From an uncultured Bacilli bacterium (GTDB taxonomy: Bacteria; Bacillota_I; Bacilli_A; RF39; UBA660), in NCBI GenBank assembly GCA_944358535.1, contig CALVRH010000013.1, positions 1-34,641 of the forward strand: a DNA stretch of 34,641 nt. The letters are read 5' to 3'. The translations under genes and the position numbers were made by a program. This document shows, piece after piece, positions 14,067 through 26,255 of the stretch (positions within the stretch are counted from its first letter, which is position 1; every line of letters starts with the position of its first letter). The notes under the pieces were generated by a model, which was not told the origin of the DNA, did not search any database, and worked only from the letters and a program-made list of their open reading frames with translations.

Positions 14067-15014
14067 ATGTATTATAAAAGAAAGATTAAGAAAGGTCCTA
14101 TTATTGCAATTATTGTTATAATTTTAGTGGTTATTTTAGTAATTGGTGGCATAAACTTATATAAGTATTATACTAGCGATGAGTATAAGCTTGGTGAGGT
14201 TGGCTATAGTGAAAAGGAAATTCAAGATATTTTAAAGTTTGAGCGCAAATATATTGATTATGCAATAGAGCACAAATATGAAGATGATTTTATTCCACTT
14301 ATGAAGGAAAAGTATTTTCTTTGGAAAAATTATGATAGTTATATTAAGTATATTGATGATGTATATGGCGATAAGAAGGTCGATTATTCTAAGGTGGTTT
14401 CTTTAGTCAATGTTGGAGCAAATAATGATCCTTATACACATACTAAAAAAGCGGATATGGACAAAGGGTATGCTATTTTAGTTAATAAATATACTTCTCT
14501 TCCTGAAAAATATGCGCCTGATGATGTTGTAGAGATGAGTAATTGGTATTCATACCCTGGGAATAGTATCAGAAAAGAGGTATATGATGCCTTTATTGGA
14601 ATGTTTAATGCAGCTAAAGAGGAAGGGTTGACTTTGATTGTTAATTCATCTTACAGAACTTACGATGTTCAAAAGGAAATATATGATGATTACGAAAGTA
14701 ATCGTGGAGAGGAATATGCGGACAAATATGCAGCTAGGCCAGATTTTTCTGAACATCAAACAGGGCTTTCTGTAGATATATTTTCACCTGGCTCAAATAT
14801 GGAGACGTTTGAGAGTACTGATGAGTTTAAGTGGCTTAGTGAAAATTGTTACAAATATGGCTTTATTTTGAGATATCCAAAGGATAAAGAAGATATTACT
14901 GGTTACAGTTATGAGGCGTGGCATTATCGCTATGTTGGTACTGATTTGGCAAAAAAAGTTTATGATAGCGGACTTACTTACGATGAATATTATGCATATT
15001 ATTTAGATAATTAA
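14067..15014 (+). CDS. VanY-type D-alanyl-D-alanine carboxypeptidase, copy 1
   Basis: A 315-residue enzyme with one N-terminal membrane anchor (about 10-32) and an external peptidase M15B domain. Zinc ligands are His230 and Asp237 in SEHQTGLSVDIF and His286 in EAWHYRYVG; the catalytic acid is probably Glu283. SSYRTYDVQKEIYDDY is the usual substrate-groove segment. It trims the terminal D-Ala of peptidoglycan stems. A TATAAT at 14046-14051 may be its -10; the -35 is poor. It is followed after 10 bases by a paralogue. Confidence 0.92.
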   Translation: MYYKRKIKKGPIIAIIVIILVVILVIGGINLYKYYTSDEYKLGEVGYSEKEIQDILKFERKYIDYAIEHKYEDDFIPLMKEKYFLWKNYDSYIKYIDDVYGDKKVDYSKVVSLVNVGANNDPYTHTKKADMDKGYAILVNKYTSLPEKYAPDDVVEMSNWYSYPGNSIRKEVYDAFIGMFNAAKEEGLTLIVNSSYRTYDVQKEIYDDYESNRGEEYADKYAARPDFSEHQTGLSVDIFSPGSNMETFESTDEFKWLSENCYKYGFILRYPKDKEDITGYSYEAWHYRYVGTDLAKKVYDSGLTYDEYYAYYLDN

Positions 15015-15024
15015 GGGTGAGATT

Positions 15025-16101
15025 ATGAAGAAAAAGGTGTTAATAATTGGAATTATATTAATAGTTATTTCTTTATTTTCATTCTTTTTATTTTTTAATA
15101 ATAACAAGAGTGATGATAAAAGCATTAATGATTTACTTAAGGAAAAGGGGTATTCTGATAGTGAAGTATCATTTATTTTAGATAAGGTTTCTAAAGAGGA
15201 TTATGATTATGTTTTAGAATTTGGTTATGATAAAAGTTTAATCAATATATTGTCATCTTCAGAATATGATGAAAATAAATTTACTGATTACATAAAATAT
15301 TATATGAAAAATAAAGATTCAAATATTAATGATATTATTACTATTATAAATTCTGATTATGATTTAGATAATTATCCGGCTAGTAGTTTACTTGCTAGTT
15401 TAGTCAAAGAAAAATATTATATAAATGGTAATGTGGCACGTTATTTAGACTATGGAAATAATCATGATGTTGATTTTAAAAAAGTTATCGGAATCGTGAA
15501 TTCTAAAGCTGATTTGGGTTTTTATAGTGAGAGTTTAGATAGTAACTTAGGTGCTAATAATTTAGTTTTAGTAAATAAGTTTTACCATTTAAAAGATGAT
15601 TATATGCCTTCAGATTTAGTTAGTTTAGGTGGACAATATAATAGAGGGGCAAACAGTAGAATGAGAAAGGAAGCGGCGGATGCTTTTATGAAAATGGTTG
15701 ATGCGGCTAAACTTGATAATATTATTTTATATAATGCTTCAGCTTTTAGAAGTTATGACTATCAGGTTAATTTATATAATAGATATATTAAAAGAGACGG
15801 CAAAGCAGCGGCTGATAAGTATTCGGCGAGGCCTGGATACTCAGAACATCAAACTGGGTTATGTTCTGATTTGAATATCATAGACGATTCTTTTGATGGA
15901 ACTGATGAGGCTAATTGGCTAAAGGATAATGCTTATAAATATGGATTTATTTTAAGGTTTCCAAAGGGTAAGGAAGATATTACCGGTTATAAATACGAGC
16001 CTTGGCATTACAGATATGTGGGATTAGATGCGGCTAAGATAATTTATGAGGATGATATTACATTAGAAGAATATTATGCTTACTATATAGAAAAACTCTA
16101 A
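15025..16101 (+). CDS. VanY-type D-alanyl-D-alanine carboxypeptidase, copy 2
   Basis: A 358-residue paralogue of the preceding gene: a membrane anchor (about 5-26), a longer linker region, then the M15B domain. Zinc ligands are His275 and Asp282 in SEHQTGLCSDLN and His328 in EPWHYRYVG, with Glu325 as the catalytic acid. The two share the C-terminal pattern (KYGFILRFPKGKEDITGY) and the same Tyr-rich tail, so they come from tandem duplication, but linkers have diverged. A pair may differ in timing or substrate. No vanR/vanS, vanA or vanX is nearby, so resistance is not implied. Confidence 0.92.
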   Translation: MKKKVLIIGIILIVISLFSFFLFFNNNKSDDKSINDLLKEKGYSDSEVSFILDKVSKEDYDYVLEFGYDKSLINILSSSEYDENKFTDYIKYYMKNKDSNINDIITIINSDYDLDNYPASSLLASLVKEKYYINGNVARYLDYGNNHDVDFKKVIGIVNSKADLGFYSESLDSNLGANNLVLVNKFYHLKDDYMPSDLVSLGGQYNRGANSRMRKEAADAFMKMVDAAKLDNIILYNASAFRSYDYQVNLYNRYIKRDGKAAADKYSARPGYSEHQTGLCSDLNIIDDSFDGTDEANWLKDNAYKYGFILRFPKGKEDITGYKYEPWHYRYVGLDAAKIIYEDDITLEEYYAYYIEKL

Positions 16102-16128: not shown

Positions 16129-16722
16129 TTAATAAACTTTTTGAGGTTTTGCAGAACTATCATTTAGATTTATGTAGTATATACCATTAGCATTAGAATA
16201 CATTAATAATGCTTCACTTCCATATCCTGGATATAATATTTTCAAACTAGTTGCTGTTTCATTAGTTAATTTTGTTGGTGATGAAGAAGTAGCTCCTAAA
16301 TTTAAATAGTATATTCCACTATTATTAGAAAAATATAAAATAGCTGAATTATAGACAGCATACACATCCATTGAATTAGCAGTCATTTTTGTAAGTTTCA
16401 CAGGCTTATTATCACCCAATGTTAAAGAATATATACCATTATTATCAGAAAAAATCACTCCAACTTGGTATGTCGAAGGAGATATAGCTGCACTAAAACT
16501 TAAATATTTTGATTTTGATGAACAATTTTTGGCTTTAGAATATAATTCATCAATAGCAGTTTGAACCTCTGTAGCATTTAGTCCGCTTGTTTTATTATCA
16601 TATGTTACTTGATTACTTGGAAAGTATGTTATAGCATAAGCAATGGTTATTCCTCCTATAAAAGAAACTAATATTAAAAATAATATTTTATTTTTGAAAA
16701 ATTTTTTTATTTTTTCTTTCAT
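16129..16722 (-). CDS. Membrane-anchored surface protein with YFPSN-VTYDN module and three repeats
   Basis: A 197-residue protein: MKEKIKK start, a signal-anchor helix (about 12-31), then the module TYFPSNQVTYDNK ... SGL ... VQTAIDELY (about 32-63). The rest holds three repeats of about 40 residues, each with a NGIYxLxL or NGIYYINL core and a KLT ending, like short beta-propeller or DUF5050-type repeats. The same N-terminal module opens the gene at 23041-23985. It is divergent from an XRE regulator in both cases. The module is one I associate with uncharacterised surface proteins of uncultured gut Firmicutes; function unknown. Confidence 0.75.
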   Translation of the reverse strand: MKEKIKKFFKNKILFLILVSFIGGITIAYAITYFPSNQVTYDNKTSGLNATEVQTAIDELYSKAKNCSSKSKYLSFSAAISPSTYQVGVIFSDNNGIYSLTLGDNKPVKLTKMTANSMDVYAVYNSAILYFSNNSGIYYLNLGATSSSPTKLTNETATSLKILYPGYGSEALLMYSNANGIYYINLNDSSAKPQKVY

Positions 16723-16748
16723 GGTTATTCCCTCCTATTTTCTATTAA

Positions 16749-16822
16749 GATGTTATCATATTCATTTGACTTTGTCAATTGTAAACATCACTATGATAAT
16801 GAAATATCATTTTGGAGATGTT
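16749..16822. promoter_or_regulatory. Divergent control region with nested inverted repeats (putative operator)
   Basis: Between the surface protein and the XRE gene: AACATC (16784-16789) and ATGATA (16793-16798) are mirrored by TATCAT (16805-16810) and GATGTT (16817-16822). The same two hexamers occur fused as GATGTTATCAT at 16749-16759. TTGAC-TTT-GTCAA (16766-16778) is a further palindrome, and its minus-strand TTGACA can act as the -35 of the surface gene. This is what an autoregulating XRE operator region would look like. Binding is inference. Confidence 0.55.
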
Positions 16823-16842
16823 ACTATTTTATTGGTGATTAT

Positions 16843-17121
16843 ATGATAGCAAATAAGATTAAAATATTAAGGGAAAATAAGGGATTATCACAGAAAGCTT
16901 TAGCTGATAAACTTGGCATTACAAGATCAAGTGTGAATGCTTGGGAACAAGGTATTTCGGTACCATCAACACAATATATTGTTGAGCTTGCCACCCTATT
17001 TGAAGTATCAACTGATTATTTACTTAATTTTAAAAATGATAAGGCTATCAGTATTGAAGGTTTAAATGACAAAGAGGTTAAGATTGTTTTAGAATTAATT
17101 GAATATTTTAAGCAAAAGTAA
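16843..17121 (+). CDS. XRE-family transcriptional regulator
   Basis: A 92-residue protein with one helix-turn-helix of the Cro/C1 type at residues 4-58 (KIKILRENKGLSQKALADKL and SSVNAWEQGISVPS), then a short C-terminal tail with LNDKEVKIVLELIEYF. I chose ATG at 16843, giving the standard start of this family; an upstream ATG at 16750 would add 31 unrelated residues that overlap the operator. It probably controls the divergent surface gene and itself. Confidence 0.88.
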   Translation: MIANKIKILRENKGLSQKALADKLGITRSSVNAWEQGISVPSTQYIVELATLFEVSTDYLLNFKNDKAISIEGLNDKEVKIVLELIEYFKQK

Positions 17122-23040: not shown

Positions 23041-23985
23041 TTATAGTTTTAATTGGAATGGATTACTTTGACTTCCATCTCCACCTGTAATTTGTGTTTC
23101 GGATGTGAGATATAAGACTGGGCGGACAATATTAGAATAAGTGACTGCAGGTCCACGTCCGTCAACAAAGCCACTAGATAAACTAGAAATAATAACATTT
23201 GCATAATATCTAAATGAAGCATTAGGTGTTTGTAACCATTCTGTTACTCCACTAAATAAATAATCACTGTTTTTACAACTACCATATCCATAAAGTGTGG
23301 TTGATAAACAACTACTTCCTGCCGCATATCCATAATCACTTGGATACATTAATCCTATATATTGTTTGGTACTTGTTGGATTTCCACTATATACTGTGTT
23401 ACTTCTTTCGGCATCATAATAACCACTTGCTGTTAGTGTTTGATAATTTTCTTGAGTTGGCCCGCCTAAATAATATGTCTCTTCTGATATCATATTTTTA
23501 TATGTTCCATCTATACTATTATAATAGTCCCCATTTAAATAACTTTTTAATGATGCGTTATTCCAATTATTGTTATCAGTTGAATTCCATTGCATACTAC
23601 CAATACTTTCATTTCTGATTATTTTTATTTTTCCATCTATTACTCCTATTATTCTCCATAACTCATTATTAAATGATACATAATTATTTGGATTTTTTCC
23701 ATAATATCTTATATCTCCATGTTCATCTTTATATAGTTCATCTGGGTTACTTGGTAACAAATCTGTTATTGTGTCTGAACCCTTTGGCGGAAAACATACT
23801 CCATACAGTTCATCTATTGCTCCTTGGACATCTGTACTTGAAAGCCCGCTTTCTTTATTATCATATGTTACGTCATTAGATGGAAAATATGTAGCCGCAA
23901 TTACACTTATACTAATTGCTGTTATTACTCCTAATACAAATCCAGGTAAATATCCAAATATAATTTTCTTTATTTTTTTCTTTCA
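23041..23985 (-). pseudogene. Surface protein with YFPSN-VTYDN module, out of frame at an A7 run
   Basis: Read from the ATG at 23985, which has a strong AGGAGAGG site, the gene leaves its frame at a run of seven A (23973-23979). With six A, as at the same place in the paralogue at 16722, it reads MKEKIKKIIFGYLPGFVLG, a membrane anchor, TYFPSNDVTYDNK, VQGAIDELY, and on to the stop without interruption (about 314 residues). The external domain has NNELWRIIGVIDGKIKIIR, W- and N-rich strands, IGLMYPSDYGYAAG and VRPVLYL near the end, a C-type-lectin-like or DUF6273-like pattern. The only in-frame start after the run, TTG at 23760, has no binding site. Phase variation, mutation and sequencing error are all possible. 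Confidence 0.8.
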
Positions 23986-24011
23986 TGAATACCTCTCCTA
24001 TCCTTAAATTT

Positions 24012-24040
24012 ATTATAGCATATTTTTGTCGTATAGAATA
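24012..24040 (-). promoter_or_regulatory. Promoter of the second surface-protein gene
   Basis: On the minus strand, an extended -10, TGCTATAAT (TATAAT at 24012-24017), with a weak TATTCT (24035-24040) at 17 bases. It lies 26 bases before the ATG. Confidence 0.5.
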
Positions 24041-24094
24041 GCAAAAAATAAATAAAAATCTATTTACTAGTTACAATTTTTATGGGTGATATAT

Positions 24095-24529
24095 ATGGAG
24101 TTTAAAAGGATTAAAGCTATTCGTGAAGATAATGACTTGACGCAATCTAACATAGCACGTCTACTTAGGGTTAATAGAAGTGCTTATTCTTTATGGGAGT
24201 TAGGTATTAATACAATTCCACTTAGTAATTTAGTTGATTTTTGTAATTTATTTAATTTGAGTATAGATTACATTTTAGGAATAACAAATGTGAAGAATTA
24301 TACATTAGTAAATAAAAATATTGATATAAAGGTTTTGGGTGAAAGATTAAAGTTTATTAGAAAGAGAGAAAAAAAGACGCAGGAAAATATTGCGAATTTA
24401 TTAAATACAACGCATTCTACTTGGAGTGCTTATGAACACAGTAAAGTTTTAATTCCAACTATTTTTATATGGAAATTTGCGACAGAATATAAGTGTTCTA
24501 TTGATTGGCTTTGCGGAAGGATAAATTAA
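24095..24529 (+). CDS. XRE-family regulator with two helix-turn-helix domains
   Basis: A 144-residue protein. Residues 1-62 form one Cro/C1-type domain (KRIKAIREDNDLTQSNIARLL, SAYSLWELGINTIP) and residues 78-142 a second (LGERLKFIRKREKKTQENIA, STWSAYEHSKVLIP), each ending in a CSIDWL- or LSIDYI-type helix. The double domain may bind two half-sites as one chain. I chose ATG at 24095 because the GTG nine bases upstream lies in the GGGTGAT binding site. It is divergent from the frameshifted surface gene, as at 16.8 kb. Confidence 0.87.
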   Translation: MEFKRIKAIREDNDLTQSNIARLLRVNRSAYSLWELGINTIPLSNLVDFCNLFNLSIDYILGITNVKNYTLVNKNIDIKVLGERLKFIRKREKKTQENIANLLNTTHSTWSAYEHSKVLIPTIFIWKFATEYKCSIDWLCGRIN

Positions 24530-24556
24530 AACCACTGTTTAGCAGTGGCTATTTTG
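24529..24556. terminator. Bidirectional terminator between the second XRE gene and the HEXXH gene
   Basis: CCACTG, five bases, CAGTGG, with A-rich sequence on the left and T-rich sequence on the right. It sits between convergent genes and touches the stop of the minus-strand gene. Confidence 0.75.
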
Positions 24557-26255
24557 TTTTAATTGATGTATTTTTATATAGTCCATCTTTTGTTTGATAA
24601 TTTATAATTATGTTTACAATATCTGTATTATCTGCATAAGTTTCAGCAGATATGCCTTCAATATTATAAGGATCTAAAACTGTTATTTCTGGTTTATTAA
24701 TAACTATATTGGGAATATTTTTATATTTTTCTATGTCTTTTTTGGAAATATCATAAATAAATTCGTATTTATAATAATTTATTTCAATGTAACCCATATT
24801 TTTAGCTTCTTCAGGTGTATATTGTTTTCCATCAACATAATCTACAAAGTATTCACCATTTTTATCAATTATTAAATCACTTAGATTCGGATTTAAAATA
24901 TTGTATTCTTTATGGATTGTTTCATCGTTTATGTTGGAAATATTAACTGGTATTTTTTTAGTTACACTAAATGATATATTTACAAGATTATTTTGTAAAG
25001 CTTTATCTATAGGAATAAAGAATTTATATATGAATTTGTTATTATTTTTTTCTTCTTTACTTGGATAATTATAACTATTTAAGTAATCAGTACTTGAAAG
25101 GTTTTGACTATTAGATATTGTGGTTAAAAAATCAATAGTATCTTTACTATCTGGATACATGTTAGTATAAATTTCTTTTAGATAGTTATCAATTTCTTTA
25201 TTTACTTTATTTGCCATATCTGGAGTTAATTCGCCTGGGGAAGAAGAAAATAATTCTAGAAGTTTATCAGCATCTTGTTTTGGGAGAATTTCATTTATTG
25301 CATTTTCAAATTCTTGGGCCGATCCACTAAAATTTAAATTCCATATTATGTCTGGTCCAATTAATTCCATAAGAAATTTAGTCCTAACAATTTCATTTTT
25401 ATAACTATTAGAACTAGTTTCATAATATTCATTACTTATTATAGTGGCACAGGCTTCACGAATATAGTTATATTTATTATTATCTTGAAGTAAATGAATA
25501 AATTCATGAATAATTGTAGAATCATCATTTTCGTTTACGACAAATATTTTATTGGTTATTAAAGGATTATACCATCCCAAAACATTTGTCCCTGGTTTAC
25601 CCTCTTCGCCAATAACTATACTTATATTAGTCAATTTAGTTTCTAAAGAAAATATTCTATCTGATGTCATTTTAGTTAATGACAAGTCTTCAAAAAGATT
25701 ATTATTAATTAATAGTTGTTTTTGCCTTTCTGTTAAGTTATTAGAACTATTAATATAATCTATAAAAAATGAAGCGTCTACAGTTTCATCCGGCTTTGAA
25801 TATTCTATATTACTAGTTAAATTAGTTTGATTGTTATTTTGGGTATTTTGTCTAGAAGTAATGATATTGTTTATTGTGATAAATGATGTTAAAGTGAGAA
25901 TAATATCAATGCCTATTATGGTGAAATAAAAAGGTTTTGATTTATTTTGATTTTCATTTTTATTATTAAATAAAAGAGCTAGTTTACCATTTTCAAAGAA
26001 AAATTTAGTAAAATTTTCTTGATTATTTTTATAAAAATGTTTATATCCTGTTTTTGTATCTAAATATACCGTGTAATTATTTTTATATAAAGGTTTAGGT
26101 TTATGGCAAGTAATAATATATTGCATTATATTTATGATTAAATCATCTGAAATAGTTATTTTCTCTCCATTAATATATCTATAACAATATAATTTATTAT
26201 TTTTAATATCAATGTATATTAAGTTATTTTTTATTTTCAGTATTCCAGCATACAT
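24549..26255 (-). CDS. Membrane-anchored putative zinc metalloprotease (HEXXH)
   Basis: A 568-residue protein that I cannot assign to a named family. Residues 1-105 look cytoplasmic (short beta strands, Tyr and Lys rich). One membrane helix is at about 109-132. The outer part carries IIHEFIHLLQD (HEFIH at 250-254) and a Glu at 267 in IREACA, a HEXXH-x12-E layout that fits a gluzincin-type zinc site. The C-terminal 200 residues are strand-rich with many Asn. Composition is more Asn/Ile-rich than its neighbours. It starts eight bases after cca (AGGTG site), so is in that operon. Candidate roles such as processing of surface proteins are speculative. Confidence 0.65.
   Translation of the reverse strand: MYAGILKIKNNLIYIDIKNNKLYCYRYINGEKITISDDLIINIMQYIITCHKPKPLYKNNYTVYLDTKTGYKHFYKNNQENFTKFFFENGKLALLFNNKNENQNKSKPFYFTIIGIDIILTLTSFITINNIITSRQNTQNNNQTNLTSNIEYSKPDETVDASFFIDYINSSNNLTERQKQLLINNNLFEDLSLTKMTSDRIFSLETKLTNISIVIGEEGKPGTNVLGWYNPLITNKIFVVNENDDSTIIHEFIHLLQDNNKYNYIREACATIISNEYYETSSNSYKNEIVRTKFLMELIGPDIIWNLNFSGSAQEFENAINEILPKQDADKLLELFSSSPGELTPDMANKVNKEIDNYLKEIYTNMYPDSKDTIDFLTTISNSQNLSSTDYLNSYNYPSKEEKNNNKFIYKFFIPIDKALQNNLVNISFSVTKKIPVNISNINDETIHKEYNILNPNLSDLIIDKNGEYFVDYVDGKQYTPEEAKNMGYIEINYYKYEFIYDISKKDIEKYKNIPNIVINKPEITVLDPYNIEGISAETYADNTDIVNIIINYQTKDGLYKNTSIKTK

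Follow-up and report, generated by a model that had tools for sequence, protein, structure and literature searches.

The two loci of the window, i.e., of the whole stretch of 34,641 nucleotides that was analyzed, belong to a family in which the regulator and the beginning of a surface protein gene are conserved between species, while the remainder of the gene is often replaced. The explanation that we hold to be probable is that these loci are fixed promoter docks, each of which is controlled by a repressor of its own or by a slippage switch and carries exchangeable surface domains. Each dock would consist of a fixed promoter, a conserved N-terminal anchor module, and a private control device, usually a divergently encoded small DNA-binding protein or, where this is absent, a promoter with a poly-T tract, in which slippage could occur; the loci of the window would be two of about 40. 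The body downstream of the module would be replaced by recombination between paralogues and strains, and the switch would stay put.

Two Loci With the Same Design

In both loci a gene for a surface protein with the conserved module is accompanied by a divergent XRE gene (Table 1), so that the common design put forward in the original prediction was found at both sites. The surface protein of locus 1 has 197 aa and contains MKEKIKK, TYFPSNQVTYDNK, and AIDELY; its exposure on the surface is inferred. An AlphaFold2 model of this protein had a pLDDT of 73, with values of about 85-94 in the blades, and its Foldseek matches are beta-propellers. The body of locus 1 gave no Pfam match to DUF6273 (PF19789), in contrast to the body of locus 2, which matches this family with 28 bits (curated cut-off 23.5). 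The lectin-like fold of DUF6273 rests on the literature, because an AlphaFold2 model of this body was discarded (pLDDT 41, alignment of 5 rows). The predicted differences between the loci are thus present on both sides, with a beta-propeller-like versus a DUF6273 outer domain, and a regulator with a single HTH at locus 1 and one with two HTH stretches at locus 2.

Table 1. Positions of the features of the two loci within the window.
Feature	Position	Strand	Remarks
Surface protein 1	16129..16722	-	N-terminal membrane-anchor helix, conserved module, and three beta-propeller-like blades
Conserved N-terminal module, locus 1	16534..16722	-	residues 1-63; common to 40 copies in the genome
Outer body, putatively exchangeable, locus 1	16129..16533	-	with the same regulator in other species, bodies are unrelated or 18-29% identical
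Inferred -35 TTGACA, surface gene 1	16773..16778	-	TTGACA-17-TAACAT
Inferred -10 TAACAT, surface gene 1	16750..16755	-	TTGACA-17-TAACAT
Candidate operator palindrome ATGATA-N6-TATCAT, locus 1	16793..16810	no strand	perfect in G019 too
Private XRE regulator, locus 1 (single HTH, 92 aa)	16843..17121	+	HTH_3, E=6.9e-17
Surface gene 2 (module and DUF6273 body)	23041..23986	-	ATG out of frame
Conserved N-terminal module, locus 2	23794..23982	-	in frame with the DUF6273 body down to 23041
Run of seven As, one-base frame offset	23973..23979	-	sequence
Inferred -10 TATAAT, surface gene 2	24012..24017	-	sequence
Block GCTATTCTATACGACAAAAATATG, candidate control element	24019..24042	no strand	identical in four species' versions of the locus 2 dock
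Private double-HTH XRE regulator, locus 2	24086..24529	+	two HTH stretches

A start with MKEKIKK had been claimed for both surface proteins. It is present at locus 1, but at locus 2 only if the frame offset at the seven As is ignored, as the ATG at 23984-23986 and the module are in different frames. The same is true for a paralogue at C40:8840 (L021), the ATG of which is likewise out of frame, with the offset again at seven consecutive As. In both cases this could be the out-of-frame state of a slippage event within the gene, decay, or an assembly error.

The spacing of the inferred promoter of surface gene 1 recurs in two orthologous docks. The palindrome of locus 1 is by itself weak evidence, given its size and the AT-rich DNA. 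The most likely start of the divergent XRE gene is the ATG at 16843; a start at 16750 was set aside because the 92-aa form is the one that other species conserve. This regulator was found in only seven genomes of the 26-genome subset searched, all of which have an expanded surface family, and orthologues of the locus 2 regulator in three species are 84-87% identical. Locus 1 is adjoined by two tandem genes for VanY-type D,D-carboxypeptidases (14067-16101, plus strand), which converge with it, and locus 2 by a gene for a protein of 568 aa (24549-26255, minus strand) that is without a match in Pfam and contains HEFIH, as is typical of zinc metallopeptidases.

Distribution and Layout of the Family

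The genome that contains the window, an uncultured member of the Bacilli, comprises 1.33 Mb and has 40 copies of the N-terminal module (E<1e-9). Most copies have DUF6273 bodies, and DUF6273 has 42 matches in this genome, 32 of them over the curated cut-off. The distribution within the genus is all-or-nearly-nothing: six of 39 other genomes contain 24-51 copies (G002, G004, G017, G019, G026, and G038), two contain one copy, and the rest none. Distant forms of the surface family occur in 22 of 148 genera sampled within the taxonomic family. All genomes are draft assemblies, and the loci sampled in relatives were the stronger matches and not a random draw.

The upstream DNA was read for every copy in the window genome, and 36 were assessable, since four are cut by contig ends. 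A divergent XRE gene was found at 23, compared with about 0.2 divergent XRE/HTH genes expected by chance upstream of 36 loci, a divergent RHH-like gene at three, a same-strand XRE gene at one, and a poly-T tract at nine. The recurrence of the layout beyond the window had been anticipated, and it would have been refuted if most copies lacked an adjacent regulator. This was tested and is not the case: a regulator is adjacent to 27 of the 36 copies, divergently in 26, and to 56 of 74 assessable loci from five related species, in which 80 sampled loci fell into the same layout classes. In the six genomes together, 83 loci have a divergent regulator (83/114 assessable), two a same-strand regulator, 26 a poly-T tract, and three neither; six are cut.

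The copies without a regulator are not random exceptions, as nearly all have a poly-T promoter tract, which appears to mark a different type of individual switch. No divergent regulator was found at poly-T docks in the six genomes. One poly-T locus (L013) had been flagged by a script as having both, and the match turned out to be an upstream same-strand gene or a non-coding frame.

The regulators are diverse, and those of the class-A docks form 29 clusters at 50% identity. XRE/HTH_3 matches in Pfam exceed the cut-off of 23 (P0002 with 61.7 bits, P0005 with 58.4 bits). The RHH-like regulators stay below the Pfam cut-offs (best Arc, 15.5 versus 20.4 bits) and have weak profile matches to CopG/Arc structures in the PDB (E 0.005-1; ORF56 E=0.005). 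The evidence that these three are ribbon-helix-helix proteins is thus weak, and "RHH-like" is used as a label only.

Conserved Regulators and Replaced Outer Domains

The comparison of outer domains between species, which had been suggested at the outset, gave the strongest result. In 65 cross-species pairs with regulators of at least 80% identity, the regulator had a mean identity of 89%, the module of 72%, and the outer domain of 44%, versus 38% for the outer domains of unrelated pairs. The outer domains were less than 60% identical in 52 of 60 cross-species pairs; L004 and L098, for example, have regulators with 98% and bodies with 33% identity. At the DNA level, homology extends from the regulator into the module and typically ends at +171 to +200, the end of the module being at about +183. 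In many pairs it restarts after the stop codon with 80-96% identity. Such second segments have identities of 96% in L010/L107 and 96.5% in L154/L165, and in L001/L116 a segment with 84.5% identity starts at +601, the gene ending at +594. These values are from blastn segments, which replaced semi-global nucleotide identities of the flanks that were inflated (null 0.76).

Of 58 pairs in which the upstream DNA is conserved, 33 had bodies that were largely unalignable and 13 had bodies that aligned throughout. Exchange is therefore not universal, and the whole body has been kept in a few pairs (L004/L144, L037/L152). Part of the divergence may also represent rapid evolution rather than replacement.

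The dock of locus 1 is present in other species with regulators that are 92-95% identical. Its body is beta-propeller-like in the window genome and a lectin-like DUF6273 domain in G017; in G002, G019, and G038 the dock has other bodies made of blade repeats. The body of locus 1 has a relative in another species (L043) behind a different, double-HTH regulator. Within the window genome (G000), the bodies of L012, a poly-T dock, and L032, which has an RHH-like regulator, are 95% identical at the DNA level over 1.3 kb, a stretch that begins shortly behind the start codon and extends beyond the stop codon. The conserved module might provide the homology for recombination on one side of the body; homology on the other side has not been shown. 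In the locus 1 docks of G019 and G002 (L116, L160) the outer domain is made up of blade repeats in tandem that are almost identical to one another, which suggests variation by repeat number or repeat conversion.

Palindromes in the Control Regions

Private palindromes were observed in several docks. In the docks of one subgroup of regulators, the 17-bp spacer that separates TTGAC(A/T) from the -10 box of the surface gene is filled by a perfect palindrome, and docks with different regulators have different palindromes: ACTCACAAAATGTGAGT (also given as CTCACAAAATGTGAG), CCACGAAACGTGG, TGTCTGCAATAAAGACA, and ACACCAAATTGGTGT. Palindromes occupy 10 of 23 scored promoter spacers, compared with 2.3 expected, but they are found in only 10 of the 83 divergent docks, mostly of this one subgroup. 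Outside of it the evidence for operators is modest, because perfect inverted repeats are present in 67 of the 83 control regions versus 47 expected.

The spacer palindromes fit local repression by the private regulator, for which binding data are lacking. The divergent regulator most likely represses its neighbor, and probably itself, by binding to a palindrome of its own in the control region that the two genes share, and it is proposed that each surface protein would therefore be turned on and off independently. Repression as well as actual switching are inferences, for which there are no expression or population data. It counts against the explanation by docks with private switches that it takes more than a small autoregulator to produce a heritable switch.

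Poly-T Docks and Poly-G Relatives

Poly-T tracts lie beside a conserved leader in nine docks of the window genome and in 17 of the loci sampled from relatives, with the consensus ...AAAAATATTACTTG-Tn-GTGATATCTTG(A/T)ATATTGGATAAGATAGGAGAGG...ATG. The conserved 29-base leader occurs ten times in the genome and not at all in a reversed control. Tracts in the window genome are T7 or T16-T22 where measurable, and the lengths at 27 poly-T loci fall into two groups, 7-8 (seven loci) and 16-36 (20 loci), with none between. Nine contigs break off within the tract, directly behind ATTACTTG, which would be expected if it is impassable for assemblers, and the exact lengths of long tracts are therefore unreliable. 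Broken genes are more common in docks with short tracts (4/7 versus 1/20, Fisher p=0.009), intactness having been judged by the analyst from frame lengths. The -10 box of this class is uncertain. A loss of mismatch repair, which might have explained tract instability, was rejected, as MutS is present.

The poly-T docks (L230-L244, L012, L017, L020, L097, L106, L108, L110, and L113) are situated shortly downstream of same-strand genes. By eye, these resemble housekeeping genes, e.g., for ribosomal protein L27, polynucleotide phosphorylase, DNA ligase, and tRNA synthetases, and the same neighbors recur between species. At L013, L033 (41218), L136, L142, and L244 the upstream gene looks, also by eye, like one for an Rpn-type recombination-promoting nuclease.

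In sister genera, genes of the same protein family have an upstream poly-G tract of G7-G12 (loci L211-L228 in G197, G117, G063, and G186), which in G197, G117, and G063 lies between -35-like and TATAAT-like boxes. Two loci of these genera (L219, L226) have a divergent XRE gene in place of the poly-G tract. Most of the poly-G tracts are beside the TATAAT-like box, and the tract of G186 could also pair in a hairpin that is followed by Ts.

Alternative Explanations

The poly-T tract could be the U-tract of a terminator-like hairpin, with the surface gene being expressed by read-through from the same-strand gene upstream. The short distance to that gene would suit such an arrangement, and a dyad, ACAAGT(T/A)AT...ATTACTTGT, precedes the tract in many loci, its region having a mean fold z of -1.4 with 14 of 23 below -1. 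However, the dyad is wholly absent in several loci (L055, L056, L113, L244), several upstream genes apparently have their own hairpin-plus-T terminator before the poly-T element, and the poly-G tract of the sister genera is placed between recognizable -35 and -10 boxes. Read-through from a terminator is a possibility that we retain, but think unlikely. The poly-T tract as a promoter spacer is favored because the poly-G tract seems to be analogous, and the question remains open.

More generally, the loci might represent an ordinary expanded family of adhesin-like proteins, in which regulator and surface gene were duplicated as a unit and are under ordinary local control, and the outer domains evolve fast. 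Divergent pairs of a regulator and its target are common in bacteria, XRE genes are common in such genomes, and the 13 pairs with aligned bodies are also in favor of this explanation. Yet the regulators are of unrelated types (XRE with a single HTH, XRE with a double HTH, RHH-like), and therefore duplication as a single unit cannot account for all of them. This explanation, which we regard as improbable, is already hard to square with the drop of homology at the module boundary and its recovery downstream, with the near-identical bodies of L012 and L032 behind different switches in one genome, and with unrelated folds in one dock in different species. That regulator and surface gene form a toxin-antitoxin, immunity, or prophage-remnant module can be given hardly any weight: the matches of the XRE proteins include phage repressors and antitoxins (RstR, PezA, DicA), but all are below the cut-off and no family cut-off is passed, the partner is a membrane-anchored protein with a lectin-like or beta-propeller-like ectodomain and not a member of a toxin family, and the poly-T docks have no regulator at all.

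Comparison With Known Systems and Implications

The nearest described case is Spy1336/R28-Spy1337 of Streptococcus pyogenes, in which the genes for a surface protein and a DNA-binding regulator are likewise divergent, transcription changes with a variable T-homopolymer in the control region, and the protein repeats vary (PMC7098570). It is one locus with an AraC-type regulator and an LPXTG anchor that has the tract and the regulator together (PMC7098570), in contrast to the about 40 docks described here, which have XRE or RHH-like regulators and either a tract or a regulator, never both. The nearest family is the spacer switching of mycoplasmas, which shares the homopolymer tract by promoter elements: for vlp of Mycoplasma hyorhinis, maa2, and vmm, changes in tract length in the -35/-10 spacer turn transcription of surface proteins on and off (cited in PMC2268961). 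Unlike the docks, these genes encode lipoproteins and are not known to have private divergent regulators. For vlp-type systems we know of no report that bodies were exchanged between fixed promoters under different regulators, and to our knowledge neither they nor R28-Spy1337 comprise paralogues by the dozen, with private regulators that are unrelated to one another and bodies that are exchanged separately.

The tentaclins, C-type-lectin-like receptor-binding proteins of phages that are diversified by retroelements (PMC10743442), belong to the DUF6273 family, as do the body of locus 2 and those of most copies. In contrast, the variation observed here appears to be by exchange of whole bodies; retroelements were not looked for. 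Nothing was found on RF39 and phase variation in a search of open-licence literature, and nothing specific on combinations of XRE regulators with phase variation. A function as antigens or adhesins, as had been proposed, and a role in host, phage, or immune recognition remain inferences. Whether the genome has a bank of about 40 mutually independent docks, controlled individually by repressor-operator pairs or slippage promoters, that exchange ectodomain cassettes, resulting in a combinatorial display of lectin-like and propeller-like proteins, is in our judgment evenly balanced.

In the antigen-switching families known so far, all members usually share a single type of switch. The family described here has many unrelated private regulators as well as presumed slippage promoters, and a switch and the protein that it controls are inherited separately. 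If this is true, the docks would represent a natural set of small repressor-operator pairs and a clear case of a regulator and an effector that evolve on separate tracks, and they would offer a testable account of how uncultured Bacilli of the gut type diversify their surface against phages or immunity.
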